A stretch of 43,566 bases of DNA from contig CAIWVW010000059.1 of the NCBI GenBank assembly GCA_903916255.1, positions 1-43,566 of the forward strand. Direction: 5' to 3'. Positions 12,025 through 29,705 of the stretch are shown one piece after another; position 1 is the first letter of the stretch, and each line of letters begins with the position of its first letter. A program made the translations under genes and the position numbers. Source of the DNA: an uncultured Bacteroidota bacterium. Its GTDB lineage: Bacteria; Bacteroidota; Bacteroidia; JABEUT01. The notes under the pieces are model-generated. The model saw only the letters and a list, made by a program, of their open reading frames with translations. It was not told where the DNA came from and did no database searches.

Positions 12025-15000
12025 TTACCTTATCAATTGCAGGAAACCATCCCTCTTATATGTATTACCCTGGCACGTACCTGTAACTATATAATAATAT
12101 ACTCCATCCGGTGCATTGCCTCCGCCTTCGGTAGTTCCTGTCCAGTAACTGTTAGGGTCGGTCGAGTTGAACATCTCCTTGCCCCAGCGGTCATAAATTA
12201 TTATAGACCAGGCACTCATGTTTTCCGTTTTTATGTAGAATACATTATCCAATCCCAATGAGCCTTTATTATTTGGCGTAAATACGTTCGGCACAAAAAA
12301 GTTAAAGCATGGCACATCCACTATAATTGTAACAAGCCTCTCTACCTGGCAGCCTACCGAATCGGTTCCGGTAACAGTGTATGTGGTGGTAACTGTGGGT
12401 GTTACTTTTACCGTATCGCACCACGGAGGGTTTAAACAAGTTACAGGCGGTGCCCATGTGTAGGAAGCCAAGGTCTTGCCAAAAGCTCCTATAATGGTAT
12501 CATTCCCTTGCAATATAACTTTATCGCAGCAAGCCGCAAGCGGAGGACTGACAGGAGTTATAGTAGTTGTTTTAAAAGTAGTGCAGCCATCAGATACCGT
12601 AAGCGTATAGGTTGTAGACACACTGTCTGTTACCGTTATGCTGGAAGATGTTTCTCCGCCAGGCTCCCACAAATAAGTAAGAGACCCCGTACCTGTGGCA
12701 TTTGCAGTAAGCACCACAGGTTGGTTGGCACAAGTTAAACTTGGAGGATTTACAGTAACTTTAGGTGCAGCCCTTAATGTAATTGTAAAAGTAGTTGTAT
12801 CAGCACAACCCAGAGAATTAAAGGCAATCAAAGTAATGGTTGAATCAGCATCAATGTTTTTGGTAATATACTTTGTACCAGTAGAACCGTTGCTCCACAA
12901 ATAGGTTGTTCCTCCGCTGGCAAATAAAGTATCCGTTTTACCTAAACATTTCCATGCAGTTCCTTTAATTACGGGCTTTGGAAGCGGAACTACTTTTACC
13001 GTGTAAGGTAAATGCAAGGTATCGCATTTGCCGTAAACAGTTGCCGTGTAGGTGGTAGAAACTGTATCGCTTACATTTATTGACGAGGTGGTAGCTCCGG
13101 TGCTCCATTTGTATGTTCCTGTACCTCCAGTAATATTAGCAGATATTACGACAGGGCTATTCGGGCAAACAGAATCGACATTTGAATTTATTGTGGCTGT
13201 AAGCGGTTTTATTATTCCGATTTTTACGGTAGCCGAATCTCTGCAGGAACCGTAAGCAGCGTAAAGGGTGTAGGTAGTAGGTACGGTAGGGCTAACAATA
13301 ATTACACTCGTGGTGCTGTGGTTAGACCACAAATAAGTTGAGCCGCCGCTTCCGGTAAGTTTCACGGTATCGCCTGCACAGGTAGAATCTTTGGATGGCC
13401 TGATAGCTGCAGCCGGAGAAACTATATGAACGGTGAATGTTGTATCATGAAAACAATCTCCATTATTGGACGTAAGCGTAAAAGTTTGCGTACTGCTAAT
13501 CACTTTCACAATAGAAGTGGTTGTTGCACCCGTACTCCACGAATAATTATTTCCGCCAGAGGCGACTAATGTATCCGAATATCCCGAGCATACGGAATCT
13601 TTCCCTGTAATTACAGGTTTAGGTACAGCATACACTTTTATAGTAACCGTTGCTGCTGCATTGCACCCATTGGAATCAAACCCTACAACGGTATATGTAG
13701 TTGTTACCGTTGGCGTGGCTGTTGGATTCGGGCAAGTATTGCAAGTCAAACCTGAAGTCGGAGTCCAGCTATATGTTTTTACGCCGCTTGCCGTTAATGG
13801 AACACTGGCGCCATTGCATATGCTGTCTACCGCAGGCACAACTGTAATAGTTGGGGTAACCGGGTTTTTAAGTGTAATCGTTATAAAAGTTCTACAGCCC
13901 TCGCTATCGGATACGATACAGGTGTACGTACCTGCAATAAGCCCTGTATCTTTCTGGGTAGTCTCACCATTGCTCCAACTATAGGTGTAAGGAGGAATTC
14001 CACCGGTAGGATATGCTGTAATATTTCCTTTAGACAAAGCGCAGTTTGGATTAGTGTCTCTTGCAGTTACTCCATATCCCACTTTTCCGGTAATTATTAC
14101 CTGGGCCGAATCAAACCTGGGCGGACAAGAACCATCTGTTACCCTAACGGTATAAATACCTGCACACATTCCGGTATCTGTTTGGTTTGTGGAGCCATTA
14201 CTCCAACTGAATTGGAAAGGAGAAATGCCACAATTAATTGTAACCGTTGCTCTGCCGTCACATGCTGAACAGGAACTTGGATTGCCTGAGGCTGAAGAAA
14301 TAAGGCTTGCAAGCGGAGGAACGTTAATGGCGCATACAAATGAATCGCCGGCTGCATACAATAAATTATTCTGACCATACACCAAATCGTAAATAGTATT
14401 GGCAAGTTTTATGGTTGTATCCACCTGCATCGATGAATTGTAAACACGAACCGTATCCTGACAACCCAGGAAAATATCGTCGCATGGGCTTACAGCCAAC
14501 CCGCCCCAATCCGGTTTATTCTGGGATAAAATAACACTGCTAACAGCTATACTGTCATCCAATGTCCCCGTGTTTTTATAAAGTCGTTTTAAAGTGAGGC
14601 TGTTGGTTATATACAACCAATTCGGACTCACAGCAATTCCATCATACCCATTCGCTACATCATTACCGGAAGCAACATAACTGGGAACATTACTTTCCTG
14701 GAATCCAAAATTATCAGGAGTAATATAGTTTGTGGGAGCAAGAGAAGGCAGAGGAAGTGAAACTATAACATTATTAAAAACGGTTGGATGCGAAGCAGAT
14801 TGTGCTGTAGCCATATAGCAGACAAGTCCGGATGGGTCCGGTGCAATAAGAACTATGTCATGGAAAGGTGTAGTTGCACTCAAAATATTTACAGGCGTAA
14901 CGCTAATCATGTTCGTATCTAAAATACAAGCCTGATTATCGCCGGACGTTCCTCCCGCTCCAATAATAATGTTACCATAACATGGGTTGAACACAGCCCT

Positions 15001-15856
15001 CCAAAATTCATTAAGCTGAGTAGTTCCCGGAGATGTTCCGAGCAGCGCTCCCAAGGTATTAATTTTCATTGCCCTTGCCCCGCTACTATTAAAACCTTCC
15101 GTAATATAGGCTGTCCCTGAATTTCTGTTTACCGCAACATCCCCATAATATCCATATGTATCGAAGGCTGTAGCATTAAAAACCCAAAGCGGGCTGCCTG
15201 TGCTGCTAAACTTTTCCAACTGCAAAGGCATCCAGCTTCCGAAGGCATACACATTGCCATTATAATCGTAATCGATATCATAAGCCCTGTCGTATATCGA
15301 ACTATAGAGCGGGTCGGTACTCCAAGGGTCAATAACCAGTGTTTTGCTTTTGTCGTAATTCTCATTAATACTGAATGATTCTGTATTCCCGCTTACTTTA
15401 TATGAAACATCAATACTCCCTGAACCGCTGCTGTAATAGCTAACAGGGGCATGGTCTGTAATTTCGCCCACTTTGCTGTTGAAAACCACATTGCCTTCTT
15501 TATCAATTTTCAATCCACCGGCATTGGAATACTCCAGTTTTACTTTTGAAATATCAGCTCCCGGATGTAAAATAATAGCATATTCTATTCCCTGCTTTCC
15601 ATTGGGAAAAGTATATTCCAAATCGATTCCCGGATAAATATCTTTATAGGTTATTTTTTTGAAAATATCCGTTTTAATAAAGTCGCTTTTTCCTTTAGGA
15701 TATGTATAATAATAGTTCAATTTACCGGCGCTTTCCAAAGTAACGGAAGAATTGGCAGCTACCCAGTCAGAATGCATTGTGTGAACCACAGGAGGAGGCA
15801 AATTTTCATCCGGGTCTTTTCCTGAAGATGCTTTCCCTTTCAAGGGAAATTCTTTG
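12025..15856 (-). pseudogene. T9SS type B cargo protein, C-terminal fragment (gene split by IS1595-family insertion)
   Basis: Open for 1274 codons from the insertion point; there is no start or signal peptide, and TAG follows a few bases inside the element. The order is: rest of a DUF7948-type N-domain (IYPGIDLEYTFPNGKQGIEY, to about 170); a repeat region that may form a propeller (about 175-515); two SprB-type repeats (SPFQFSWSNGSTNQTDTG and PPYTYSWSNGETTQKDTG); about seven Cys-paired Ig/PKD-like repeats (ICNGASVPL, VCSGYSDTL, TCAGDTVKL and so on); and a type B sorting domain (VPNVFTPNNKG, IIYDRWGKEMF, APDGVYYYIV, GFLQLIR end). Removing 15857-18332 and one target copy joins it in frame to 18334-18624, giving 1371 residues. 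Without a Sec signal this part cannot reach the T9SS. Confidence 0.93.
15849..15856. repeat. Target-site duplication ATTCTTTG (left copy)
   Basis: Directly abuts the left inverted repeat and is identical to 18333-18340. Eight base pairs is the known duplication length for IS1595-family elements. Confidence 0.95.
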
Positions 15857-15878
15857 GGTAACTACTTACATTGTGGGA
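15857..15878 (+). repeat. Left terminal inverted repeat of the IS1595-family element
   Basis: GGTAACTACTTAC then ATTGTGGGA; pairs with 18311-18332 read in reverse complement (…CTTTATGGGA) with two mismatches. Confidence 0.93.
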
Positions 15879-16051
15879 TAGGGTAAAAGTCAGTATTATA
15901 TCAAATAATGATGAAGTAAAGTAAAAAATAACTATTTTTAGGTTGTGTTTATTTATGGTGTAATTTTGGAGAAACAAAATTATCCAAGGGATGCCAAAAG
16001 GATTTTACAGAATACCCAAAGTTAAAACCTCTGATATACTATGGATATATA

Positions 16052-16282
16052 TTACTGTTTATTCTCAAGCAATTTTTGAATTTTTCTTTCCAATTCCGGA
16101 TGGCAAACATCCCAAGTTATTTTTTTTGATTCTTTATGGACTTGGATATTATATGCTTTTTTATGGCATATATCACATTCTGTTTCATTCAGAATTTTCG
16201 CCCTTCTTTCGGATTCTTCTTTCACTTTTTTCATAAAAGCATCCGTTTGTGCTTTTATTTTCCTATTTACTTCTGAAAACAT
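16052..16282 (-). CDS. Small Cys/His protein carried by the IS element
   Basis: 76 residues from ATG 16282: a charged, probably helical N-half (VNRKIKAQTDAFMKKVKEES) followed by CDICHKKAYNIQVH and VCHPE, that is C-x2-C-H with a later C-H pair, which looks like a small zinc-binding unit. Family not recognised. The complementary strand is also open (15991-16236), but the Cys/His pattern and charged composition favour the minus-strand reading. It is divergent from the transposase gene across 166 bp. It might regulate the element or be pure cargo; neither is shown. Confidence 0.5.
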   Translation of the reverse strand: MFSEVNRKIKAQTDAFMKKVKEESERRAKILNETECDICHKKAYNIQVHKESKKITWDVCHPELERKIQKLLENKQ

Positions 16283-16317
16283 GGTCGGTTAATTTAAAGC
16301 GTTAGCGACTATGGCAA

Positions 16318-16347
16318 GGGGGTAGGTTTACGAGACCTGCCCTTTTA
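16318..16347 (+). terminator. Terminator-like hairpin upstream of the transposase gene
   Basis: GGGTAGGT (16320-16327) pairs with ACCTGCCC (16335-16342) with one G-U pair, around a 7-nt loop and followed by TTTTA. No plus-strand gene ends here. Its position fits the insulating hairpins some elements use to block transcription coming in from the flanks. Confidence 0.4.
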
Positions 16348-16401
16348 TCATTTACAAAGATAATTATTTCAGTGTGAATATTTATTTTCAAATTTAGGTA
16401 G

Positions 16402-16428
16402 TTTGTGGGACTTATTATGTTACCTTTG
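16402..16428 (+). promoter_or_regulatory. Probable transposase promoter (TTTG-N15-TACCTTTG)
   Basis: TACCTTTG (16421-16428) fits the -7 consensus and lies 20 bp before the ATG. The upstream TTTG is closer than usual (15 bp). The -33 region contains TTGTGGGA (16403-16410), an 8-mer also present in the left terminal repeat. Confidence 0.5.
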
Positions 16429-16448
16429 CCGCATCAAATTTAAACGCT

Positions 16449-17408
16449 ATGACTTTTAATTTCAAATCGGTAATAGAACTTTTAGACCATTTTAAGGATG
16501 AGCAAACTTGCAGAGAGTTCTACGAACAACAACGCTGGGGCGGCTCTCCCGTATGTCCTCATTGTGGAAGCACTAAAGCACCTTACAAAACAAATAGAGG
16601 CTTTAAATGCTCTGAAAAACTTTGCGCTAAAAAGTTTACCGTTACCGTAGGGACAATATTTGAGCAGTCTCATATCCCTTTGCGTACATGGTTTGCAGCT
16701 ATCTACCTAATTACAGCCCATAAAAAAGGTATTAGTTCCGTGCAATTAAGTAAAGACTTAAACATAAGCCAAAAGACCGCATGGTTTTTATTGCACCGAA
16801 CACGGGAAATGCTAAGGAACAAAAAGCCTGTAATGCTTAATAATAACGTGGAAATTGACGAAACATATATTGGTGGCAGAGAGAAAAATAAACACGCTAA
16901 TAAGAAAACTCCAAAGGATTACAGAACTACTGCGGAAAAGATAAAATCCAATGCCGGAAGGTCGTTAACTGATAAGGCAGTTGTATTGGGATTAGTGGAA
17001 CGGGATGGTAAGGTAATTGCTAAACTTGTGCCGGATGCACGGGCAAAACATCTTATCCCTATTATTGAAAAGCACGTTGCTAAAGGCTCTAATATGCTAA
17101 CGGACGAATGGTATGCTTATGGACAATTACATTTAAAAGGATATAGCCATAAAACAATACAGCATAATCTTAAAATATACGTCCAGGGTGAAGTTCATAC
17201 CAATACAATAGAAAACTTTTGGAGCGTTTTAAAACGTGGCTTATATGGCATCTATCATTATACAAGCAAAAAGCATTTAGATAGATACTTGGATGAGTTT
17301 TGCGCCCGTTACAATACAAGGGATTTGACCGGAGCAGAAAGATTTGAAAAATTCTTGCAAGAAAGTGAAAGTAGGTTATCGTGGAAAGACCTTGTAAATG
17401 CTGCATAA
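16449..17408 (+). CDS. IS1595 family transposase (ISXO2-like)
   Basis: 319 residues. The N-terminal zinc ribbon of the family is clear (CPHCGSTKAPYK … FKCSEKLCAKKFTVTVGTIFE, about 36-76), then a helix-turn-helix stretch (ISSVQLSKDLNISQKTAWFL). The DDE-like catalytic domain starts at VEIDETYIGG (first Asp), with the second Asp in MLTDEWYAYG and the last motif NTIENFWSVLKRGLYGIYH followed by KKHLDRYLDEF. Nothing appears truncated or shifted, so the enzyme should be active. It moves the element by cut-and-paste or a related route; the 8-bp target duplication seen here agrees with the family. It is expressed from its own promoter inside the element. Confidence 0.95.
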   Translation: MTFNFKSVIELLDHFKDEQTCREFYEQQRWGGSPVCPHCGSTKAPYKTNRGFKCSEKLCAKKFTVTVGTIFEQSHIPLRTWFAAIYLITAHKKGISSVQLSKDLNISQKTAWFLLHRTREMLRNKKPVMLNNNVEIDETYIGGREKNKHANKKTPKDYRTTAEKIKSNAGRSLTDKAVVLGLVERDGKVIAKLVPDARAKHLIPIIEKHVAKGSNMLTDEWYAYGQLHLKGYSHKTIQHNLKIYVQGEVHTNTIENFWSVLKRGLYGIYHYTSKKHLDRYLDEFCARYNTRDLTGAERFEKFLQESESRLSWKDLVNAA

Positions 17409-17423
17409 TAATTCGTATCTTTG
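17392..17423 (+). promoter_or_regulatory. Candidate promoter TTG-N21-TATCTTTG at the transposase 3' end
   Basis: TTG (17392-17394) and TATCTTTG (17416-17423) lie at the end of the transposase gene, pointing into the 90-bp gap before the convergent HEPN-like gene. No open reading frame follows, so a product would be non-coding. Confidence 0.4.
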
Positions 17424-17507
17424 CAACGGGAAATTTCCTATTGCAATTTATAAAGAGATGTTTTAAAGTAGGGAACACCCCTGAAATTTAACATCTCTTT
17501 ATATGTT
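17424..17507 (+). ncRNA. Candidate small structured RNA of the IS element
   Basis: Two hairpins follow the promoter-like sequence: TTGCAA (17421-17426) pairs with TTGCAA (17441-17446), with GGAA/TTCC inside; then a 13-bp perfect stem (17450-17462 with 17490-17502) encloses AGGG/CCCT. The transcript would be about 80 nt and antisense to the last codons of the HEPN-like gene. The second hairpin alone could simply be a bidirectional terminator, so the RNA is a proposal. Confidence 0.3.
17450..17502. terminator. Long-stem hairpin between convergent transposase and HEPN-like genes
   Basis: ATAAAGAGATGTT pairs perfectly with AACATCTCTTTAT over 13 bp, with a 27-nt loop that can fold further. It overlaps the stop codon of the minus-strand gene. 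The T-run after the stem is weak on both strands. Confidence 0.5.
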
Positions 17508-18095
17508 ATTTTCCGTTACTGTTAATAATTCTTGACCCACTCCACAAAGGATTTTAAAGGAACTTTCAAAATCCCCCTTAAATTTATCTAATTTCTTAAA
17601 ATCAAATTTTTCAGGCTGTTTGTTTATTTGCTTCCCAATTATAGTTTGAACAAATAATTGAATTTCTCCGGTTTCTAAATCGCTATTTTCCCAATCTAAT
17701 TTCAGATGCGCAAACACATTCCGCATCCCTATTAATCTCCTTATCGTAGATATGAAATTTGGACTTTTCTTACCCCTTCCTGTTAATTTATTTTCTGTTA
17801 AATATTTTTTGCAATGGGTTTCTATCAAAAGAGCCAAAGCCTCGAATTTTAGAGATAAATTCATATTAAGCCTTGAAAAGAAAAAAGCCCGAAATTCATT
17901 TAATCTATTATCAAATCCCTCAATAGATTGCATAGTAGGGATGGGAAATGTACCCGTTGTTTCTCGGAAATAATAGCATAGTAAATAGAAGTCTATTGCG
18001 TCTTCTAAGGAAACTATATCGTGTATTACTTGTCCCCTATAATAAGCACATAGTTCATCTACATTACTTATTTCAATAGAAAGTTTTTTTGCCAT
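17499..18095 (-). CDS. HEPN-like domain protein carried by the IS element
   Basis: 198 residues, mostly helical. The segment RRLIGMRNVFAHLKLDW contains RN-V-F-A-H, an R-x4-H motif with a polar residue after Arg, as in HEPN-superfamily RNases; SLKFEALALLIE upstream fits the second helix of that fold. The pattern also resembles MltR-like HEPN proteins that are not known nucleases. No partner antitoxin is recognised; a basic 42-residue peptide is encoded divergently 26 bp away. Possible roles are element-borne toxin, defence cargo or regulator; none is proven. ATG 18095 is preceded by TATTTTTG at 18100-18107, very close to the start. Confidence 0.6.
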   Translation of the reverse strand: MAKKLSIEISNVDELCAYYRGQVIHDIVSLEDAIDFYLLCYYFRETTGTFPIPTMQSIEGFDNRLNEFRAFFFSRLNMNLSLKFEALALLIETHCKKYLTENKLTGRGKKSPNFISTIRRLIGMRNVFAHLKLDWENSDLETGEIQLFVQTIIGKQINKQPEKFDFKKLDKFKGDFESSFKILCGVGQELLTVTENNI

Positions 18096-18117
18096 AATTC
18101 AAAAATAATTATATTTG
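18088..18117 (+). promoter_or_regulatory. Near-consensus promoter TTTG-N18-TATATTTG
   Basis: TTTG (18088-18091) and TATATTTG (18110-18117) have the same 18-bp spacing as the strong promoter at 29856-29885. It overlaps the start of the HEPN-like gene and drives the 42-residue peptide gene, whose ATG is 4 bp after the -7 box, so the message would be leaderless or start inside the gene. A minus-strand TATTTTTG (18100-18107) overlaps it, so the two promoters would compete. Confidence 0.55.
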
Positions 18118-18121
18118 CATT

Positions 18122-18250
18122 ATGGTAAAACCGAAAGCCAAAAAGAAAAAGAGAGCAAACAAGTATGACACTAAGTTAGCAGTAAAAGGCACATTCTTAG
18201 AAGTCATACAAGCCTCTCTATTACCGGATATTAAGGCAGAAAAGCCTAAA
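18122..18250 (+). CDS. Small basic peptide carried by the IS element
   Basis: 42 codons from ATG 18122 to TAA 18250: a Lys/Arg-rich start (MVKPKAKKKKRANKY) and a short amphipathic segment (GTFLEVIQASLLPDIK). Small ORFs with a lysine-rich start are common in Bacteroidota and often unannotated. It diverges from the HEPN-like gene with overlapping promoters, which would fit a regulator or antitoxin, but no family is recognised and it could be non-coding. Confidence 0.45.
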
Positions 18251-18310
18251 AAGAGTAAAAAGGCGTAAAAACGCAAGTATTCTTTAATTCAATAACTTAT
18301 CCGTATTTAG

Positions 18311-18332
18311 TCCCATAAAGTAAGTAGTTACC
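18311..18332 (-). repeat. Right terminal inverted repeat of the IS1595-family element
   Basis: Read on the minus strand it begins GGTAACTACTTAC then TTTATGGGA. It matches the left end at 20 of 22 positions. Confidence 0.93.
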
Positions 18333-18624
18333 ATTCTTTGTATTGGTAAACAATTCCATGTGCTGTAAAGTATACCCATACACTACCTAATTGGGCCGCA
18401 TACAATATTTTATCATTCCCGGGAATGGCTCCGTCAAACTGTCCTTTATTGGCAATAAAAACCTGGTGGTCGAAAGGCGTAGTTTTCCATTTAACATGGT
18501 AATCTTTTTTATTTTTCACCCCTTGTGAAGATGAGTTGCCCTTAGCATTTACAGGCTTTTGCGCATATGCGCCACCCGACAAAAAGAATAGAACACATAC
18601 TGCAATTAAATAACCGTTTTTCAT
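18328..18624 (-). pseudogene. T9SS type B cargo protein, N-terminal fragment (gene split by IS1595-family insertion)
   Basis: From ATG 18624: a Sec signal peptide (MKNGYLIAVCVLFFLSGGAYA), then HQVFIANKGQFDG and ILYAAQLGSVWVYFTAHGIVYQYKE, the opening of a DUF7948-type domain. The frame enters the right terminal repeat and stops after one foreign residue (W) at 18328. The ancestral continuation, EFPLKGKASSG, is found at the other side of the element. The present product would be a 98-residue exported stub. The upstream in-frame extension to 18708 runs through the promoter and is not used. Confidence 0.93.
18333..18340. repeat. Target-site duplication ATTCTTTG (right copy)
   Basis: Identical to 15849-15856 and directly next to the right inverted repeat. 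Confidence 0.95.
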
Positions 18625-18675
18625 TTGGCTGGTATTAGTTGGTAATTGGTATATAGAACGGTAGTGTAAACGACT

Positions 18676-18708
18676 CAAAGCTAAGGAAAAAAACTGCAAT
18701 GCCGACAA
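18676..18708 (-). promoter_or_regulatory. Promoter of the disrupted T9SS cargo gene (TTG-N22-TAGCTTTG)
   Basis: TAGCTTTG (18676-18683) with TTG at 18706-18708 on the minus strand, 52 bp before ATG 18624. It shows the gene had its own promoter separate from its upstream neighbour, which ends at 18710. Confidence 0.5.
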
Positions 18709-18709
18709 T

Positions 18710-21448
18710 TTAACGTATTAACTGCAAAAACCCCTGCTTTTTATAGTTGTTTCCCTGACAAACTGCGGTAATGACGTAGTAATAAACCCCATCGGGAGCA
18801 TTTGCCCCTCCTTCTGTATCTCCGGCCCAGTAATTATCAGGGTTGGTCGATTTGAACATCTCCTTGCCCCAACGGTCGTAAATTATAATCGACCATGAAT
18901 CCATATTCACCGCTTTAATGTAAAACACATTATCCAAACCAAGACCACCTTTACTATTGGGCGTAAATACATTGGGAACGGTTACATTAAAACAAGGCGT
19001 TTCAACCTCAATAGTTATTATCCGTTCTACCTGGCAGCCTGCCGTATCGGTGCCGGTAACGGTATATGAGGTAGTTATTGTTGGAGTTACTTTAACAGTA
19101 TCGCATAAAGGATTTAAACATAGCACCGAGGGCTGCCATGCATAGCTCACAAGGCTTTTTCCGTATGAACCCAGTATAGTATCATCACCTGCTAAAATAA
19201 CTTTATCGCAGCAGGCTGTTATGTTTGGGCTAACAGGAGTAACTGTTGTGGTAACGGCTTTTACACATCCGTTGGAAACTAAAACGGTGTAGGTTGTAGC
19301 AACGCTGTCGTCTACAGTTATACTCGACGAAGTTTCTCCTCCTGGCGACCATATATACGTTACCGGCAAAGGGCTTGTAGCATTGGCGGTAAGCACAACC
19401 GGGCTATTTGCGCATGTTTGAACAGGAGGATTGATAGTTACCGTTGGTGTCGGATTTACTTTAATGGTAAAGTACGCTGAATCTTTACAACCAAGCGAAT
19501 TAAAAGTGTATACTTCAATAGTTGAATCGGCATCTATATTCCCGGTATAATATTTGGAGGAGGAAGTACCGTTTTGCCATAAATAAGTTCCTCCACCCGA
19601 AACGGTAAGAGTGTCTTTAGCTCCCAAACATTTCAGGCTGTTGCCGGTTATTATTGGTTTATCTAAAGGGATAATCAACACCTTTTGTTTTACTGAATCC
19701 ACCGCACAAGTTACTGTCGAATAAACAGTGTAGGTTGTGGTTGAATCGGGGTTAACTGTAATTGCACTGGTAGTAGCCCCATTGCTCCAAAGGTAGGCAG
19801 TTCCACCGCTTGCTGTAAGTGTAACAGATGCATTCGGGCAAAGCGTATCGGCAGTATGTGTAAGCGTTGTTTTTCCGGCAGATTTAACAAATACCGAAAC
19901 ATTTGCCGAATCGGAACAATATCCGTTTGATGCCGTAACGCTATATGTTTTAGTGATGTCCGGATTCACCCAAATACTATCTTTTGTCTGTCCTGTGCTC
20001 CACTTGAATGAACCTCCGCCAGCAGCAACACCTGCAATAAGCAATACACTATCTCTGGCACAAATGGTATCAGGCTTTGCGAGTATAGAAGGGACCGGTT
20101 TTTGAAGAACCACTACATTCAGCATTGTATCTTTTATACAACCTCCATCCGAAACACCCAATGTATATGTTTGCGAAACAGATGGCGTTACTTTAACAGT
20201 TGCAGTTGTTGCTCCCGTGCTCCATACATAAGTTCTGCCTCCGCTGGCAGTTAATGTTGAAGTGTCGCCAAGGCATATAGTATCTCTGAATACAGATAAG
20301 TGAATATGCGGCGCTGAATCGATTTCCACTACAAATGAAGCATATGTGGTATCATGCGGAGTTTGATTATCATATCCATATAAATCGATAACGTGGTATC
20401 CATAATTAGCCGGAGAACCCACAACTTTTATAATCAAACTATCGGTGGGTCCGGATGTATTTGAAAAAATAGACGACCCGGATAAATAAGGCGGAGAAAG
20501 GTTTGCCCAAACAGAATCTCCCTGAAGGGGCGAAAGAAAGTAAATAGGAATTAAAACCGAATCGCCTTCACAAATGCGAAAGGTATCGCAGGCGGAGATG
20601 CCAGATAAAAGTGGAGCAATGGTACCGGAGCATAAATTAAATAAAAATGACCTGTTGTTAAGCCAATATACCCCATCATAATGTGGTGCGGGTGGAAACT
20701 GCCCTACGTAGGCAGCGGTTGCGGTATCAAACAAACCAATTTGTAAAGACCTTATCCCATCACCTTCATTTGCTCCCACGTTGGCAGGGTCGCCGCCAAA
20801 ACCATGGTCATGGCTTAAACAATCGGGAGCAGGAGAATCTGCTCCTGTGGTCCACCCCATATTTTTATAACATATTTCCACATTATTGCCTTTTGGAAGT
20901 ATGGGGTCATTCCCGTTGGTTATAATTATTTGGAAGGTGTTTGTAGTATCATAATCCCCGTAAGCAGGATTACCGCTGCACCACAGCGGGCCTACAAAAC
21001 CAACGCTATCCCATTGAACTATTAAATGAGTGGAAGTAAGTTGATAATATACCGCATCGCTCGACGGGAACGCCGGATTTCCGGGTCTGGTATCCACGTC
21101 AGCCCAAAAGGCGGCAATCATAGGTATGTTATTATTGTAGGGAAAGGTATCAGCCGAGAATTGTGACAGTGCCTGATTAAATGTAATGTTCCCGTTGTTA
21201 TTAATAAAAACAGAATCCAGTTGTCTTCCCCAGAAACAAAACTTAAAAGGAAGGATTATTACCTGAGACGAACCATCGTCATTACGGTAATACGGAGGGG
21301 TATATCCCACAAACGGTACAACATGAAAACTGGTATCCCTTTCTTGCCAGCAATTACAAGCACTCTGCCCCTGCGCTTTATTATTTAAAACGAGCATAAA
21401 AACAAAGATGCCGACTAAAAAAGTATAAACCCTATTCACTTTTATCAA
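18710..21448 (-). CDS. T9SS type B cargo protein with nidogen-like domain and Ig/PKD-like repeats
   Basis: About 912 residues. There is no ATG start: TTG 21448 or GTG 21439, both just after a -7 box, begin a signal peptide (YTFLVGIFVFMLVLNNKAQG). An N-terminal nidogen-like (NIDO) domain follows (FVGYTPPYY, DSVFINNNGNITF, IPMIAAFWADVDTRP, NNVEICYKNMGW, about 45-270), then an Ig-like segment and about six Cys-paired repeats (ICLGDTSTL, ICARDSVLL, LCPNASVTL, KCLGAKDTL, TCANSPVVL, CCDKVILAGDD), each ending in a WSTG/WSNG-type strand. The last 90 residues are a type B sorting domain (VPNVFTPNSKG, IIYDRWGKEMF, GFLQLIR). It is predicted to be exported by the T9SS and kept at, or released from, the surface, as an adhesin or matrix component. 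Confidence 0.88.
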   Translation of the reverse strand: MIKVNRVYTFLVGIFVFMLVLNNKAQGQSACNCWQERDTSFHVVPFVGYTPPYYRNDDGSSQVIILPFKFCFWGRQLDSVFINNNGNITFNQALSQFSADTFPYNNNIPMIAAFWADVDTRPGNPAFPSSDAVYYQLTSTHLIVQWDSVGFVGPLWCSGNPAYGDYDTTNTFQIIITNGNDPILPKGNNVEICYKNMGWTTGADSPAPDCLSHDHGFGGDPANVGANEGDGIRSLQIGLFDTATAAYVGQFPPAPHYDGVYWLNNRSFLFNLCSGTIAPLLSGISACDTFRICEGDSVLIPIYFLSPLQGDSVWANLSPPYLSGSSIFSNTSGPTDSLIIKVVGSPANYGYHVIDLYGYDNQTPHDTTYASFVVEIDSAPHIHLSVFRDTICLGDTSTLTASGGRTYVWSTGATTATVKVTPSVSQTYTLGVSDGGCIKDTMLNVVVLQKPVPSILAKPDTICARDSVLLIAGVAAGGGSFKWSTGQTKDSIWVNPDITKTYSVTASNGYCSDSANVSVFVKSAGKTTLTHTADTLCPNASVTLTASGGTAYLWSNGATTSAITVNPDSTTTYTVYSTVTCAVDSVKQKVLIIPLDKPIITGNSLKCLGAKDTLTVSGGGTYLWQNGTSSSKYYTGNIDADSTIEVYTFNSLGCKDSAYFTIKVNPTPTVTINPPVQTCANSPVVLTANATSPLPVTYIWSPGGETSSSITVDDSVATTYTVLVSNGCVKAVTTTVTPVSPNITACCDKVILAGDDTILGSYGKSLVSYAWQPSVLCLNPLCDTVKVTPTITTSYTVTGTDTAGCQVERIITIEVETPCFNVTVPNVFTPNSKGGLGLDNVFYIKAVNMDSWSIIIYDRWGKEMFKSTNPDNYWAGDTEGGANAPDGVYYYVITAVCQGNNYKKQGFLQLIR

Positions 21449-21462
21449 GAATGAAGAATATT

Positions 21463-21496
21463 CAAAAATACGAAAAAGTAAACATGTTTTTTACAA
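21463..21496 (-). promoter_or_regulatory. Promoter of the nidogen-like cargo gene (TTG-N23-TATTTTTG)
   Basis: TATTTTTG (21463-21470) on the minus strand, 14 bp before the TTG start codon, with TTG at 21494-21496. It limits the gene start to 21448 or 21439. Confidence 0.5.
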
Positions 21497-21504
21497 GGCC
21501 CCTT

Positions 21505-24500
21505 CTATCTAATCAACTGAACAAATCCTTCTTTCTTATAATCAGTACCCTGACAGGTGGCATTAATAATGTAATAATACACTCCATCGGGCGCCTTGCT
21601 TCCTTCTTCCGTGCTACCGTTCCAGTATTGGCTTGGATTACTCGACATGAACATCTCCTTGCCCCAGCGGTCATAAATTATTATGGACCATGCAGAAAGA
21701 TTTTCAGTTTTAATATAGAATATGCTGTTTACACCGTTAGAGCCTGCATTGTCAGGAGTAAAAACATTTGGTATCGTTAAACCGATGCAGGGTAACTCTA
21801 CCATAACTGTTAATATTCTCTCTGTTTCGCATCCGAGGCTATCGGTTCCAATCACGGTATATGTAGTAGTAACAGTTGGCGTAGCTATAATATCCGGGCA
21901 TGTATCGCAATTGATTCCCGTTGAGGGAGTCCATTGATAATGTATAATATCTGCCCCGCTGGCATTAAGGCTTACAGGGTTCCCAGAAAATATTGCGGTA
22001 TCGCAGCAGGCATATATTTCCGGGTTCTCTACTGTTACTATGGTAGAAGAGGTGGCCTTACATCCATTTGAAACGGTAACGGAATAACTGGTAGTTGATG
22101 TTGGGGATACATTGATAGAATCAGTGGTAGCTCCTGTATTCCAAAGATACTTCCCTCCCCCGGTAGCCAGCAGTGTAATTGTTTTACCGGGACATATATT
22201 CCTGGGTGATGTAACGGTAATTACAGGCAATGAATCTACGGTAACAGTAACTTCGGTATCTTTACTGCAACCATTGCTAGTAACCGCCACCGTATATGTT
22301 ATGCTAGATGAAGGCATAACAGAAATAGTGCTTGATGTAGACGTATTACTCCATAAATAAGTACCACCACCGGTTACAGCAAGAGTTACTCCTTTCCCTG
22401 CGCAAATGGCCGTGTCGGGAGTTATGCTTACAACAGGTACAGGATTAACAGTGACGGTGGTGACGGTATCTTTTGCACAAAATCCATTACTTACACCCAC
22501 GGTATAGGTGGTAGTGGATAAAGGGATTACCATTATAGAACTTTCCGTAGAATTAGTACTCCATTTATAAGTTCCACCTCCGGTGGCTACAAGTGTAACT
22601 GCGCCACCAGTGCAAATTGCCGTGTCGGGAGTAATAGAAATAATGGGTGGGGGATTAATAAAAATACGAATACTGGTATCAGAACTGCACGTTCCGATAG
22701 ATGTGGAAAGGGAATACGTGGAATTTGCTACAGGCTTTACCCAAATGGTACCGGATGTAAAACTTCCGGGTGTCCACAAATAGCTTGTACCGCCACTGCC
22801 TGTAAGTTGGATACTGTCGCCAAGGCATGTAGAATCAGATGGAAGTGCAGTAATAATTGCTGTAGGTTGCGGTTTTACAAACACGGTTATTTTATTTGAA
22901 TCTTTACAACCATTCGCCCCAATCCCCACTAAACTATATGTAATGGTAGAGTCAGGAGTAACATTTGTAACACTACAAGTAGTGCAAGATAATCCTGTTG
23001 AAGGGGACCATGAATAAGTTGATGCACCACTCCCGTTTAGTGTAGTTGATTGCCCTTTACACAGACTGTCATTGGGAGGGGTTATGTTAATAGACGTATG
23101 GTTAACGTTAACTGTAACAGTTGCAAATCCTATGCAGCCGGGGCTTTTACCTGCAACAGTATAAACAGTACTAACAGTAGTGTTTGTTATTACAGAAGAG
23201 TCGGAAGAAGTATTTAACCCCTGCGAGGGTGACCAATAATAATTTACAGCCCCGCTGGCAGTTAGGGTTACACTATCTCCGGCACAAATTGTGGTATCTA
23301 TTGGTGAAACATGAATCGGAATAATGCAACAGGGATTCCAGCGTGCTACAAATGGAGCTTCAACTCCATAGGGCAATGTATCAACACCAAAAATAGTGGT
23401 ATCATATAAATCGCCACCAATATATATATACCTTCCCGCATGGTCAACCGCTACGCCGTCATTATCATCTTCTCCTCCCTCACCGGAAACTGAGCCACAG
23501 ACTACGTTACCTGAAGAATCAAATTGAAACAGGACGGTGGCGCTATGGGAAGCGGTATTCAAACTAAATGTATCCACCCCGTATTTTAATGTAATAGGTG
23601 GAGCACCTTGTCCATCCATTATGATAAAGCCACCGCCGGAGGGCAAGGTATCACAGGCAAGGGAATATCCGGTCCATGTACCTGTGCTTAGTGGAATTCC
23701 TTGCTTTGCCCAACGTAAATTACCCGAACTGTCATACCGGTTAAAGAATACATCTTCCTTAGGGTTTCTTACCGTATCTGCACCGAATGTTACTGACTTT
23801 GTAAAATTACCGGTAATATAGGCATTGCTTAAAGCATCTACACTGACTGAAACGCCCCTTGCATTAGAATTGCTAGAATTATTAAACGATTGTCTTGCCC
23901 AAAGGGCATTACCGTTTTTGTCATATTTGGCTATAAAGGCATTGTTAGTGCCTATTGTAGGATGCAATGTAATGGCGCCAAATTTCAAAGTATCATCAAA
24001 CCACCCGGTTATATAGGAATTCCCCGAATGGTCTAATGCAATAGAATTAGAAACCGGAAGGTAGCTTACACCTCTTCCGGTTGACTGGGCTGCCCAAAGG
24101 ACATTACCGTTAGGGGCATACTTTACTATATATACCTGCTGTTTACCTTCACCTGAATATTTCAGGGTATCTGTCCCGAAGATTACCGTACTATCAAAAG
24201 TACCGGTTACATATGCATTACCTGAAAAATCTGAAGCAACATCATTCCCGGCACAAAAATTGGTGGCAGTTGTTGTATTAGAAGATTTTTTTGCCCATAA
24301 TACATTACCGGTATTATCGTATTTAACAAGGTACATTTGACTGGTACTGCTATTTGCATTAACCAATGTATCTGTTCCAAATATCGCTGTATTGTTAAAA
24401 TACCCTGTTTCATATATATTGGAAAACCCATCTGTTGAGAGCCCCATAGATATGACATATTGATTGGGAATTCCTTTCGTTCCTTTTGCCCACATTACAT

Positions 24501-24762
24501 TCCCGTTAAAATCGTATTTAACCAGGTAGGCTCCAAATCCGGTGTATGAAAACACAGTATCGGTTCCAAATAATAAAGTATCAACTGACAATCCTGTTGA
24601 ATATACATTCCCGGCATGATCTACTGCAACGCAATGGTTGCCTAAAGGGTCTCCTTCACCATGTGGAGGTTCCGTATTCTCTCTAGCCCAATTCCATGAT
24701 TGTCCTGAAATATTTATGGTGAAAAAGAAAAAACTGATAAAAAAGAACGTAAATATTTTCAT
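21505..24762 (-). CDS. T9SS type B cargo protein with seven SBBP-type propeller repeats and Ig/PKD-like repeats
   Basis: 1085 residues. Signal peptide (MKIFTFFFISFFFFTINISG), then seven repeats of about 60 residues (about 25-470), each with a DHAGNVYSTG-like strand, an LVKYDFNGNVMWAK-like strand and an FG-x-DT element (LFGTDT, IFGTDT, IFGTDT, KFGAIT, TFGADT, KYGVDT, IFGVDT); seven is the right number for one closed beta-propeller. About six Ig/PKD-like repeats with paired Cys follow (ICAGDSVTL, LCKGQSTTL, TCLGDSIQL, ICTGGAVTL, ICAGKGVTL, ICPGKTITL). It ends in a type B sorting domain (IPNVFTPDNAG, IIYDRWGKEMF, GFVQLIR). No catalytic motif is seen; a surface-binding or adhesion role is likely. 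Confidence 0.9.
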   Translation of the reverse strand: MKIFTFFFISFFFFTINISGQSWNWARENTEPPHGEGDPLGNHCVAVDHAGNVYSTGLSVDTLLFGTDTVFSYTGFGAYLVKYDFNGNVMWAKGTKGIPNQYVISMGLSTDGFSNIYETGYFNNTAIFGTDTLVNANSSTSQMYLVKYDNTGNVLWAKKSSNTTTATNFCAGNDVASDFSGNAYVTGTFDSTVIFGTDTLKYSGEGKQQVYIVKYAPNGNVLWAAQSTGRGVSYLPVSNSIALDHSGNSYITGWFDDTLKFGAITLHPTIGTNNAFIAKYDKNGNALWARQSFNNSSNSNARGVSVSVDALSNAYITGNFTKSVTFGADTVRNPKEDVFFNRYDSSGNLRWAKQGIPLSTGTWTGYSLACDTLPSGGGFIIMDGQGAPPITLKYGVDTFSLNTASHSATVLFQFDSSGNVVCGSVSGEGGEDDNDGVAVDHAGRYIYIGGDLYDTTIFGVDTLPYGVEAPFVARWNPCCIIPIHVSPIDTTICAGDSVTLTASGAVNYYWSPSQGLNTSSDSSVITNTTVSTVYTVAGKSPGCIGFATVTVNVNHTSINITPPNDSLCKGQSTTLNGSGASTYSWSPSTGLSCTTCSVTNVTPDSTITYSLVGIGANGCKDSNKITVFVKPQPTAIITALPSDSTCLGDSIQLTGSGGTSYLWTPGSFTSGTIWVKPVANSTYSLSTSIGTCSSDTSIRIFINPPPIISITPDTAICTGGAVTLVATGGGTYKWSTNSTESSIMVIPLSTTTYTVGVSNGFCAKDTVTTVTVNPVPVVSITPDTAICAGKGVTLAVTGGGTYLWSNTSTSSTISVMPSSSITYTVAVTSNGCSKDTEVTVTVDSLPVITVTSPRNICPGKTITLLATGGGKYLWNTGATTDSINVSPTSTTSYSVTVSNGCKATSSTIVTVENPEIYACCDTAIFSGNPVSLNASGADIIHYQWTPSTGINCDTCPDIIATPTVTTTYTVIGTDSLGCETERILTVMVELPCIGLTIPNVFTPDNAGSNGVNSIFYIKTENLSAWSIIIYDRWGKEMFMSSNPSQYWNGSTEEGSKAPDGVYYYIINATCQGTDYKKEGFVQLIR

Positions 24763-24795
24763 GCTATTAGAATACGCTATCAGTTAATATTTACA

Positions 24796-24803
24796 CAAAA
24801 ATA
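24796..24803 (-). promoter_or_regulatory. -7 box TATTTTTG for the propeller cargo gene
   Basis: On the minus strand, 33 bp before ATG 24762, with TTTG 14 bp upstream (tighter than usual). Confidence 0.45.
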
Positions 24804-24881
24804 ATAAAAAACAGACACAAAGGAACTAACTTTACAGTTGAATAGCTTGAAACTATAATTTTATCAAAAAACTTCAAAGTA

Positions 24882-27800
24882 TCATCGAATCAACTGAAGG
24901 AAACCATCCTTCTTATAGTTAGTACCCTGGCAGGTTGCATTGATTATGTAATAATACACTCCATCCGGTGCATTGCCTCCGCCTTCGGTAGTTCCTGTCC
25001 AGTAGCTGTTCGGGTCTGTCGATTTGAACATCTCTTTACCCCAACGGTCAAATATCAATATGTTCCAGGCATCCAGGTTTGTGGTCTTTATATAAAAAAC
25101 ATCATCTAAACCCAGAGAACCTTTATTATTTGGAGTAAATACGTTCGGTACCGTAAAACTGAAACAAGGTATATCGACTGTTATAGTTACCAATCGTTCT
25201 GACTGGCATCCTAATGAATCGGTTCCTATCACCGTGTAGGTTGTAGTTACTGTTGGAGTGGCAATAACCGTAGAACAGGTATCACAATTTAAGCTGCCGG
25301 ATGGACTCCATAAGTAAGTTTTTATTCCCTTGCCGCTGGCTATTATCGTGGTATCATTTCCAATCAATATAATCTTATCGCAACAAGCACTCAGGCTCGG
25401 CTGGTCCGGCGAAATGGTTGTCTGAACACTACTAGGACAGCCGTTAGATACAATAACCGTATACGTTGTTTTTATTGTATCATTCACCGTAATGCTTGAG
25501 CTGGTCGCTCCTCCAGGCTCCCATAAATAGGTATAAGGGCCCGTACCTGTTGCATTGGCGGTAAGCGTTACCGGACTTCCTCCGCATGATACTGCTGGAG
25601 GTATTGGCTTAATGGATGGCTTGGTTCTTTCGGTAATTGTAAAATGTGTTGTATCCGGGCAACCCAATGCATTAAAAGCAACAAGCGTAATGGTAGAATC
25701 CGCATTAATAGGCCCGGTGAAATACGAAGTTTTGGTGCTTCCATTACTCCAAACAAAGGTAGTTCCTCCGCTTACAGTCAGGGTATCTTTCGCGCCAAAA
25801 CATTTCCACGCAGTCCCTTTAATTACGGGGTTTGCCAGCGGTATTACTACTACTTCTTTGGTAAGTTTTACCGTGTCGCAACGCCCGTATACCGTGGCTG
25901 TGTAGGTTGTAGTTATTGTATCACTCACATTTATTGATGAGGTTGTCGCGCCGTTACTCCATTTATATGTTACCTGCCCTGCGGATGGTGTAATAGTAAT
26001 TGATGTAATACCATGCGGGCATACGGTATCATTCACGGCTTTTATAGAAGCAGTTGTTTTAGCCAGAACGTTAACAGTGGAAGATAGGGTATCAGCACAT
26101 GAATTATTGGAAACAATAAGTGTATATGTTTTTGTAATTGCAGGCACAACTTTTATACTGTCATTTGTCTGGCCTGTACTCCATGTGTATTTTCCACCGC
26201 CCGAACCAATTAACAGAACTGTATCACCGGCGCAAACTGAATCAGGAACTGCTTTAATTGTGGCAGCCACAGTAGAGCCCACATAAACAGTATCCGTAAG
26301 CGTATCCCTGCATCCGGAAGTGCCACCAATAAGTGTATATGTAGTTGTTACCGTTGGCGAAGCCGTAGGGTTAGCGCAAGTATTACAGGAAAGAGTTGCA
26401 GTTGGTGTCCACCTGTAATTAGTAGCACCTGAAGCAGTTAATATAACGGAACCTCCATTACAAATAACCGGATTCATTGGAACTATTGAAAGTGTAGGTG
26501 TAGCGGTTACAGTTATAGTTATTGTTGTGGAATCAGTACATCCGCCGGGCGCAATCCCAACCACTGTATATGTTGTGGTTGCTGTAGGAGTAGCGGTAGG
26601 TGATGGACAGATACTACAACTTAAACTGGAAGACGGGCTCCAAATATAGGCTGAATCATCGCTGGCGAAAAGTGTTGTGCTGGCTCCTTCACAAATTGTA
26701 GGGGCACTGGTTGAAACAAAAGGAACAGGCGCACCTACTGTTATAGTAACGGTTGTTGAATCGCTGCAACCGCTGGTGCCAGATACTACCGTATAGGTAG
26801 TTGTTACGGTTGGGCTTGCAATAGGGTTCGGGCAGGTGTTGCAGGATAAGCTGAGCGCCGGCCTCCAAACATAATTAATTCCACCTGTGGCTGTTAACTG
26901 AACATGCCCTCCGGGGCATATCTGCGCACTTGAAGGACTTACGGATAATGTACCTTTGGGGTTTACTACAACCTGCACCGTATCTTTTCCTATAGTACAA
27001 CCGATATACCCTACCACAGTATATGTTGTAGTAGCATTCGGTGAAGCTTTCGGGTTCGGGCAGTTAGTGCAACTGAGACCTGTTGCAGGTGCCCATATAT
27101 AAGAACTATCGCCAAAGGCAGTCAATTGAACACTGTCTCCCTGGCAAATAGTATCTTTCGGGGGAGATATGCCAACTGTATTGGTTGCAATAACCGTTGG
27201 TGTGCATGTTTGGCAATTGGTATTTTGCCAATACAGCCCTGCAAGTACCCAGGAATAACAATCGCCACCATCATTGGTATAAACGGAATCGTAAGTGGTG
27301 GTTTGACCCGCTGTTAAAGGTGTGGTGACGGTACAAAAATTATAAAACGAATTGGGAAATATACCGGTAGAGCCATTGTAAGTTTCCGTATTGGTTGGGC
27401 TCACATTATCCTGCATATCGGCAAGTATACAAAACGCCTGGCCGGTAGGGGTTGAATTACATACGTCAAATCCGGAAAAATGCTGCCCGTGGCCAGGCCC
27501 ATTCGTAGTAAAAAGGCCATCATACAAAACAATACTGCCGCTATAGGAAGCACTTTTATCGACATATATTACCACGAACGTAATTCCATCAATTGCCCAA
27601 GCAGTAATTCCGGTTCCGCTTAAATCGATAGTATAATTTCCACCACCGCTTATACAGCTTGTAACGTCTACGCGATATGCAATAGTACCTGTTTCGTTCC
27701 AGCATTTAGGTCCTGCCGTTCCTATGGAATCAGCTGAATAATTAAAAACTCCGGCTGTGGGGTTAGTAATAGTAACAGATGCAGGGTTAGCAGCATAGGC

Positions 27801-28151
27801 CGTTTGATAAGAACCATTAAAATATAAAAATGCCTTTACTACCGAATCTACAGAACATGCACTGAGTGTTAATGGAACTGTAGCAGGAATTCCTGTACCG
27901 GGAGGGGTTGGATAGCGTGTAGTTACCTTTACGGAAGTTTGTTCCCAGTTTAATCCGCAAACATTTTGAAGGACATATGATTGGGCTAATCCTCCGGAAC
28001 TGTCGGGAGGAAGGGCTTTTCCAGTTTTATAATTAGAATTTATCCGGGAACCCTTAATTCCATCATTCTTTCCGTCATGACAAGTTGCACATTGGGCATG
28101 AACCCTTATTATCGCTATCGATAAAATAAAAAGCAGCGTAATTTTTTTCAT
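24882..28151 (-). CDS. T9SS type B cargo protein with DUF3344-like N-domain and nine Ig/PKD-like repeats
   Basis: 1089 residues. Signal peptide (MKKITLLFILSIAIIRVHAQ), then CATCHDGKNDG at the mature N-terminus. The domain to about residue 310 (VVKAFLYFNGSYQTA, AYRVDVTSCISGGGNYTIDL, AIDGITFVVIYVD, GSIVLYDG) resembles DUF3344-like exported beta domains. Nine Cys-containing repeats follow, the first five with CNTCPNP-x-ASPTVTTTYTVV-type ends. The C-terminus is a type B sorting domain (VPNVFTPNNKG, LIFDRWGKEMF, GFLQLIR). DNA at its 3' end is almost identical to that of the disrupted gene (about 24959-25005 versus 12100-12146). The CATCH is a CxxCH, but no cytochrome fold is visible. Confidence 0.88.
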   Translation of the reverse strand: MKKITLLFILSIAIIRVHAQCATCHDGKNDGIKGSRINSNYKTGKALPPDSSGGLAQSYVLQNVCGLNWEQTSVKVTTRYPTPPGTGIPATVPLTLSACSVDSVVKAFLYFNGSYQTAYAANPASVTITNPTAGVFNYSADSIGTAGPKCWNETGTIAYRVDVTSCISGGGNYTIDLSGTGITAWAIDGITFVVIYVDKSASYSGSIVLYDGLFTTNGPGHGQHFSGFDVCNSTPTGQAFCILADMQDNVSPTNTETYNGSTGIFPNSFYNFCTVTTPLTAGQTTTYDSVYTNDGGDCYSWVLAGLYWQNTNCQTCTPTVIATNTVGISPPKDTICQGDSVQLTAFGDSSYIWAPATGLSCTNCPNPKASPNATTTYTVVGYIGCTIGKDTVQVVVNPKGTLSVSPSSAQICPGGHVQLTATGGINYVWRPALSLSCNTCPNPIASPTVTTTYTVVSGTSGCSDSTTVTITVGAPVPFVSTSAPTICEGASTTLFASDDSAYIWSPSSSLSCSICPSPTATPTATTTYTVVGIAPGGCTDSTTITITVTATPTLSIVPMNPVICNGGSVILTASGATNYRWTPTATLSCNTCANPTASPTVTTTYTLIGGTSGCRDTLTDTVYVGSTVAATIKAVPDSVCAGDTVLLIGSGGGKYTWSTGQTNDSIKVVPAITKTYTLIVSNNSCADTLSSTVNVLAKTTASIKAVNDTVCPHGITSITITPSAGQVTYKWSNGATTSSINVSDTITTTYTATVYGRCDTVKLTKEVVVIPLANPVIKGTAWKCFGAKDTLTVSGGTTFVWSNGSTKTSYFTGPINADSTITLVAFNALGCPDTTHFTITERTKPSIKPIPPAVSCGGSPVTLTANATGTGPYTYLWEPGGATSSSITVNDTIKTTYTVIVSNGCPSSVQTTISPDQPSLSACCDKIILIGNDTTIIASGKGIKTYLWSPSGSLNCDTCSTVIATPTVTTTYTVIGTDSLGCQSERLVTITVDIPCFSFTVPNVFTPNNKGSLGLDDVFYIKTTNLDAWNILIFDRWGKEMFKSTDPNSYWTGTTEGGGNAPDGVYYYIINATCQGTNYKKDGFLQLIR

Positions 28152-28165
28152 CCGGTATTTTTTTA

Positions 28166-28173
28166 CAAATTTA
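28166..28173 (-). promoter_or_regulatory. -7 box TAAATTTG for the DUF3344-like cargo gene
   Basis: On the minus strand, 14 bp before ATG 28151. No clear -33 element. Confidence 0.4.
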
Positions 28174-28303
28174 GGAATTCTACAGATAAAACCCTGAAGA
28201 AAGCATTAAAACAATACTATTAAAACCTATTAACGTAAAGAAGAACGTTCCAGTATACTATTACGGAGAATCTTACCAACAGGTTGGGCTGCCGGTAAAC
28301 TAT

Positions 28304-29677: not shown

Positions 29678-29705
29678 ATGTGTTATTTTAAACATTTCAT
29701 GGAAA

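Follow-up and report, generated by a model that had tools for sequence, protein, structure and literature searches.

An IS1595-family element with passenger genes

The stretch of DNA analysed here (the window, 43,566 nucleotides; contig CAIWVW010000059.1 of GenBank assembly GCA_903916255.1) comes from an uncultured Bacteroidota bacterium and contains a transposable element of the IS1595 family, situated within a gene for a secreted protein of the kind handled by the type IX secretion system (T9SS). Between its terminal inverted repeats (TIRs) the element holds a transposase gene, a passenger gene for a HEPN-like protein and a tiny lysine-rich open reading frame (ORF), and it is flanked by an exact 8-bp target-site duplication (TSD) (Table 1). 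That inverted repeats matching at 20/22 positions and a perfect 8-bp duplication should enclose an IS1595 transposase by chance is not credible. Both ends begin with GG (GGTAACTACTTAC), the GC content of the element is 33.7% compared to 40.4% for the window, and no other full-length copy of this element was observed in the host genome. A preliminary description of the window, made from the letters and their translations, had given the repeats, the perfect duplication and every coordinate of the element correctly, to the base.

Table 1. Positions of the element, its genes and the interrupted host gene in the window, with a second element from the same genome.
Feature	Position	Strand	Remarks
Transposable element, IS1595 family with passenger genes	15857..18332	+	2476 bp; TIRs, exact 8-bp TSD, IS1595 transposase
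TSD, left copy	15849..15856	.	ATTCTTTG; read directly
TSD, right copy	18333..18340	.	ATTCTTTG; 8/8 match to left copy
Left TIR	15857..15878	+	GGTAACTACTTACATTGTGGGA; read directly
Right TIR	18311..18332	-	TCCCATAAAGTAAGTAGTTACC; 20/22 complementary to left repeat
Transposase	16449..17408	+	319 aa; zinc ribbon and DDE domain; PF12762, PF12760, NF033547
HEPN-like passenger gene	17499..18095	-	198 aa; RN..AH (RX4H) motif; convergent with transposase
Predicted promoter box of HEPN-like gene	18100..18107	-	TATTTTTG; same box as for tiny ORF, 4-nt spacing
Predicted Bacteroidota -7 promoter box of tiny ORF	18110..18117	+	TATATTTG; transcript start on ATG (leaderless)
Tiny Lys-rich accessory ORF	18122..18268	+	48 aa; KYDTKLAVKGTFLEVIQAS core; transposase strand, adjoins right end
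ORF with C-x2-C	16052..16282	-	76 aa; between left end and transposase, divergent from transposase; coding status uncertain
Host gene, T9SS-type secreted protein (DUF7948, SprB repeats, CHU_C)	12025..18624	-	1371 codons once rejoined
N-terminal host remnant	18341..18624	-	terminates at YQYKEW; stop codon from element end
C-terminal host remnant	12025..15856	-	no ATG, no signal peptide; in-frame stop at 15864
Second complete element, host genome	C134:35408-39736 (L185:5409-9737)		4329 bp; ends 21/22; duplication TTTACCAA

The transposase matched three family profiles, all above their curated cut-offs: PF12762 (DDE_Tnp_IS1595; E 9.1e-42, 143 bits, cut-off 27), PF12760 (N-terminal zinc ribbon; E 1.3e-9, 38.3 bits, cut-off 25.4) and the NCBIfam IS1595 profile NF033547 (E 1.7e-61, 207.8 bits, cut-off 75). 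Alignment with relatives showed the catalytic motifs DETYIGG, TDE and NTIENFW to be intact. By these matches the window transposase belongs to the IS1595 family, as had been proposed.

Members of this family are described as having a single transposase gene, ends starting with GG and 8-bp duplications (PMC8101967). They fall into the groups ISPna2, ISH4, IS1016, IS1595, ISSod11, ISNwi1 and ISNha5, of which IS1016 alone lacks the zinc ribbon (PMC8101967). The window element shares the DDE_Tnp_IS1595 domain, the N-terminal zinc ribbon, the GG-starting TIRs and the 8-bp TSD, but differs from a plain insertion sequence (IS) in having two further genes within its ends, of 198 and 48 aa, both of which are conserved elsewhere, the tiny ORF across many elements. 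It is therefore best read as an IS carrying passenger genes (a transporter IS, tIS). The preliminary description had taken it for a bare IS, a reading that these extra genes rule out. The 76-aa ORF to the left of the transposase had no significant family match in Pfam and NCBIfam profile scans.

The interrupted host gene

When positions 12025-15856 are joined to 18341-18708 on the minus strand, a single open frame with zero internal stops results, and from the ATG at 18624 the joint reads ...YQYKE|FPLKGK.... The in-frame restoration by exact removal of the element, claimed in the preliminary description, was thus reproduced. In the split state the first bases of the element complete TGG TAA, so that the N-terminal half ends in YKEW*, while the C-terminal half runs into an in-frame TAG within the element and has TTG as its sole start. 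The DUF7948 domain was divided between the halves: the N-terminal half matched profile positions 1-35, with a score under the gathering threshold, and the C-terminal half matched 56-214. The rejoined protein matched 1-214 of 214 (E 1.7e-48), the complete domain that had been predicted. The insertion point falls in a gap-prone loop of this domain.

At its C-terminus the host protein matched CHU_C (PF13585) with 56.9 bits (cut-off 27), and it fell just below the cut-off for the type B sorting profile TIGR04131 (33.3 bits, cut-off 35); the type B sorting domain named in the preliminary description is therefore upheld by the first profile and not by the second. SprB repeats (PF13573) are the sole pointer to an adhesin role. 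The T9SS component SprA (TIGR04189) was found in the host genome with 2392.6 bits (G000:C31), and a type IX system therefore exists in this organism.

An uninterrupted orthologue was present in the closest relative searched (G002:C113; L049:4167-8282), with a length of 1371 aa and 60% identity over its full length. It is syntenic, adjoining orthologues of the window upstream neighbours at 28304-29695 and 24882-28151, with two fewer tandem paralogues between the gene and those neighbours. The search for such an intact gene had been suggested at the outset, along with the warning that homologues naturally ending at YQYKEW would speak against a split; all homologues alignable across the insertion point (26/26) continued through it, and none ended there. 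Residues 1-681 of the joined protein had 138 matching stretches in the host genome, and with dozens of such paralogues the loss of one copy is therefore probably tolerable.

Upstream of the split gene, at 18710-29695, three more CHU_C proteins and one Por_Secre_tail protein were observed in tandem. Because two of the tandem proteins are missing from the G002 locus, this cluster is read, by comparison of the two loci, as having grown or shrunk by tandem duplication.

Related elements and their cargo

Our survey sampled 80 loci from the genome collection, chosen as the best matches to the window transposase, together with further genome regions; it therefore describes relatives of this transposase and not the IS1595 family as a whole. 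To be delimited, an element needed ends starting with GG that matched at 15 or more of 22 bases, and a perfect duplication of 8 bp. By this rule 60 elements were delimited, ranging from 1.5 to 6.0 kb (median 3.36 kb). Besides the transposase, nearly all of them (59/60) had an ORF of 120 aa or more, and 53/60 had one of 150 aa or more. The ends of related elements (GGTAACTAC/GGYAACTATATAC...GGGA) were of the same kind as those of the window element. Cargo families included P63C, RhuM, KilA-N, SocA/Panacea, GmrSD and RadC, and part of this cargo matched candidate defence models in PADLOC; the passengers of the window element gave no PADLOC match.

The host genome (3.7 Mb) contained six IS1595 matches. 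A second complete element lies on its contig C134 (Table 1). The transposase of this element is 68% identical to that of the window element, its counterpart of the 198-aa passenger is 29% identical, and its tiny Lys-rich ORF shares the core. In addition to these it encodes a STAS-like DUF4325 protein, a protein of the HATPase type and one of 321 aa with no Pfam match. Two sister elements from two other genomes of the genus, of 3385 bp (L051) and 1506 bp (L052), have the same ends, are each flanked by an exact 8-bp TSD of their own (TTATAAGT and TTTTTACT, respectively), and combine the tiny ORF with other cargo or none.

A sister branch without the tiny ORF showed a different arrangement, in which a second gene begins inside the end of the transposase gene in at least 14 elements (L092, L095, L103, L111, L114, L118, L135, L137, L089 and others), e.g. 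ATGGATAA, where the start lies 8 nt before the end of the transposase stop. The overlapping gene differed between elements, being P63C, KilA-N or RhuM. It appears that unrelated cargo has been swapped in behind one fixed translational-coupling start. At another locus (L168:1113-4659) a region bounded by TIRs and a TSD (18/22, TAATTTGG) contained the tiny ORF and no transposase, and was located in an NHL-repeat gene whose end resembles a type IX sorting tail. Judged by its sequence, this is a non-autonomous relative inserted in another secreted-protein gene.

The tiny lysine-rich gene

Using a profile built from four elements, with membership set at E < 1e-5, we found the tiny ORF in 35 distinct survey loci. 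In 32/35 it was downstream of the transposase and on the same strand, and in all delimited loci (22/22) it lay inside the element ends. It has a conserved non-Lys core, KYexKLxIxGTfdDVLKaSv. Differences between pairs by first, second and third codon position were 4/2/21 (L071 v L070), 7/7/28 (L080 v L078) and 10/2/26 in a further pair, a distribution indicative of purifying selection.

A TAHHTTTG box ending 3-5 nt before the ATG was observed in 16/35 tiny ORFs, compared to 1/120 other cargo ORFs and 1/60 transposases. The published spacing between the Bacteroidota -7 consensus and the transcript start is 4-5 nt (PMC6847099), and the predicted transcript therefore begins at the start codon of the tiny ORF. 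In Flavobacterium psychrophilum no more than about 5.5% of mRNAs are leaderless (PMC9723704). When 99 transposases were placed on a tree, a quick build with several long rows, those with a tiny ORF were strongly clustered: its presence took 11 changes compared to 32.7 when shuffled, with 0/500 shuffles as low.

To this we add a search with the profile only, across 395 Bacteroidia genomes, which gave 22 matches in 18 genomes. An IS1595 transposase lay within 4 kb of 17/22 of these unbiased matches, where we estimate a chance expectation of about 1% from six matches per 3.7 Mb. Two weak unbiased matches outside IS1595 elements, at L182:4004-4162 and L183:3851-4000, are basic ORFs of 50-53 aa whose core is similar and whose leaderless box is perfect, and no transposase was present within 4 kb. 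They may belong to an unrelated basic family, or a separate chromosomal one.

No convincing Pfam or PHROG match was obtained for the tiny ORF. A literature search, which did not extend to the founding paper of the family, returned precedents for tIS and no description of a tiny partner ORF, and the gene provisionally appears to be undescribed. From its association, coding constraint and leaderless promoter we conclude that within one branch of the IS1595 elements of Bacteroidota it regularly accompanies the transposase as a conserved gene, and its product is a candidate accessory or regulator of transposition.

The HEPN-like passenger

The passenger gene and the tiny ORF are divergent in the window, 26 bp apart, and in both the promoter box lies 4 nt from the ATG. 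The passenger family has eight members, each encoded at a locus with IS1595 transposase sequence. They have YRG...E...K...RNxxAH in common, with R20, G21, E31, K83, R125, N126, A129 and H130 invariant. The RX4-6H motif characteristic of the HEPN superfamily is present in the window protein as R125-N-V-F-A-H130. An unbiased search of the 395 genomes for the passenger returned four matches including that of the window, and all of them (4/4) either lay within an IS1595 element or adjoined the remnant of a transposase. A third HEPN-like copy in the host genome (L055; G000:C35 near 37777-38701) was observed beside a transposase fragment. The position of the gene between the ends and its replacement by other cargo in sister elements fit a passenger role.

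The window protein had no Pfam match, while two relatives matched HEPN_RiboL-PSP with 20.3 and 15.3 bits, below the cut-off of 28.4. For structural comparison we used a six-row AlphaFold2 (AF2) model (pLDDT 68) and discarded a single-sequence model (pLDDT 39.7). The five best VIA matches of the six-row model (7ae6, 6m6u, 6m6w, 7bxo and 5yep; Z 7.1-6.3) were all HEPN toxins or their complexes. With Foldseek alone no match to this model fell below E 0.001, and the passenger sequence profile found no relative in the PDB. Searches of plasmid, phage and viral collections returned no homologues of the passenger, and no MNT nucleotidyltransferase was matched at the curated cut-off among the scanned element ORFs. 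With sub-threshold Pfam matches, low Z-scores and no significant Foldseek match, we therefore call the protein HEPN-like and not a proven member; membership is moderately supported by motif and model. RNA cleavage is its probable activity.

Discussion

In our assessment it is very likely that an IS1595-family tIS jumped into a T9SS surface-protein gene, duplicating 8 bp and inactivating the gene, with its cargo and tiny companion aboard. The transposase would cut at the GGTAAC ends and insert by 8-bp staggered joining. The host gene would thereby be lost as a single product, the N-terminal fragment having no sorting domain and the C-terminal fragment neither a signal peptide nor a good start codon. 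The insertion itself is an ordinary, routine event, and the HEPN-like passenger and the tiny gene are the more informative part of the element.

Concerning the roles of these two genes, we see about an even prospect that the tiny basic protein helps or controls transposition, either as a DNA-binding protein or by attaching to the transposase; it would be translated from a leaderless transcript of its own. A toxin- or anti-phage-type function for the HEPN-like protein, which would aid persistence of the element as cargo, has in our view slightly less than an even chance. More tentatively still, and with rather more doubt than belief, we suggest that one Bacteroidota IS1595 branch may constitute a two-protein transposition system, in which a DDE transposase and a leaderless basic partner of 36-57 aa sit beside a variable slot with toxin- or defence-like cargo (HEPN-like, RhuM, KilA-N, SocA, GmrSD).

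Several observations weigh against parts of this account. Five of the 22 unbiased tiny-ORF matches had no nearby transposase (one of the five being in the TIR- and TSD-bounded L168 element), and 22 matches are a small sample. The HEPN assignment depends on a motif, Pfam matches below threshold and Z-scores below 8, the range in which VIA warns of a mere common helical arrangement. The preliminary description considered the insertion young and perhaps still polymorphic in the population. A young age is plausible given the intact repeats, the intact transposase and the undamaged halves, and is an undated estimate; the orthologue, at 60% identity, is too distant to date the event or to exclude drift in the halves.

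Two alternatives retain some small probability. The first, which we consider unlikely, is that the gene was lost long ago and fixed with no visible decay, or that the element serves as a reversible on/off switch through precise excision. Circular species are reported for another IS1595-family element, ISApl4 (PMC12561309), and the host gene is one of a large set of paralogues, among which variation might be of use. Against it are the perfect TSD, the intact transposase and two fully open halves, and the sequence gives no sign of regulated excision. Transposon excision also seldom leaves exactly one copy of the TSD.

The second, also improbable, is a toxin-antitoxin addiction module made up of the HEPN-like gene and, as antitoxin, the divergent tiny ORF. 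This would agree with the divergent arrangement in the window and C134 elements, where the genes are 26-33 bp apart, and with the leaderless-type promoter of both window genes. However, the tiny ORF is found in many elements that have no HEPN-like gene, and in elements from Mucilaginibacter the transposase lies between the two genes. An antitoxin role is disfavoured since the ORF travels with the transposase and not with the cargo.

Short length, a composition rich in Lys (AAA/AAG codons) and DNA of 34% GC could mean that the tiny ORF is a basic reading frame that arose by chance where the DNA close to the right end is rich in A, but the conserved non-Lys core, the third-position bias across pairs, the fixed strand and side relative to the transposase and the promoter box counts leave this very little probability, and we regard a chance ORF as ruled out by codon-position bias and promoter statistics. 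Finally, two independent genes that flank an old element and never were one ancestral gene, the first ending naturally and the second encoding a protein of its own, would account for the halves appearing as separate ORFs, yet we give this almost no credence, the orthologue at G002:C113 having refuted it with a length equal to that of the rejoined gene, alongside the restored Pfam domain, the homologues that cross the site, the exact TSD and the C-terminal half with no proper start.

We conclude that the window element is an IS1595 transposon that bears cargo together with a small, conserved candidate accessory gene. Known tIS with passengers include tISCpe8 of Clostridium perfringens and MTnSag1/tISSag10 of Streptococcus agalactiae (PMC5704250; tIS concept, PMC3129680), which likewise place passenger genes together with an IS1595-type transposase between their ends. 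They differ in that tISCpe8 is a lincomycin-resistance element and both tISCpe8 and tISSag10 are mobilizable by conjugation, whereas the cargo of the window element is a HEPN-like gene, accompanied by the tiny Lys-rich companion gene, with no antibiotic-resistance or mobilization gene identified in it. Transposons of the Tn3 family carry toxin-antitoxin passengers, including HEPN/MNT in TnSod9 (PMC7157771). TnSod9 resembles the window element in bearing a HEPN-type gene, but its transposase is unrelated and the window gene has no adjoining MNT gene. With HEPN toxins (MntA-HepT, HEPN/MNT) and the MtlR fold the passenger shares a mostly helical fold, as predicted here, and the RX4H motif; it differs in its low identity (~11-13%), Z-scores under 8, missed Pfam gathering score and lack of a nucleotidyltransferase partner.

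These findings bear on how such elements are read in genomes. Among the Bacteroidota relatives, a call of 'IS1595 family transposase' is usually the visible part of a cargo transposon of 2-6 kb with defined ends, and the tiny gene is short enough for many gene callers to skip. The cargo list suggests that such elements may spread toxin- and defence-type genes. If the tiny protein is a transposition cofactor, it would offer a testable handle on the control of these elements, and the two-protein reading, if true, would point to a widespread and overlooked class of small cargo transposons.

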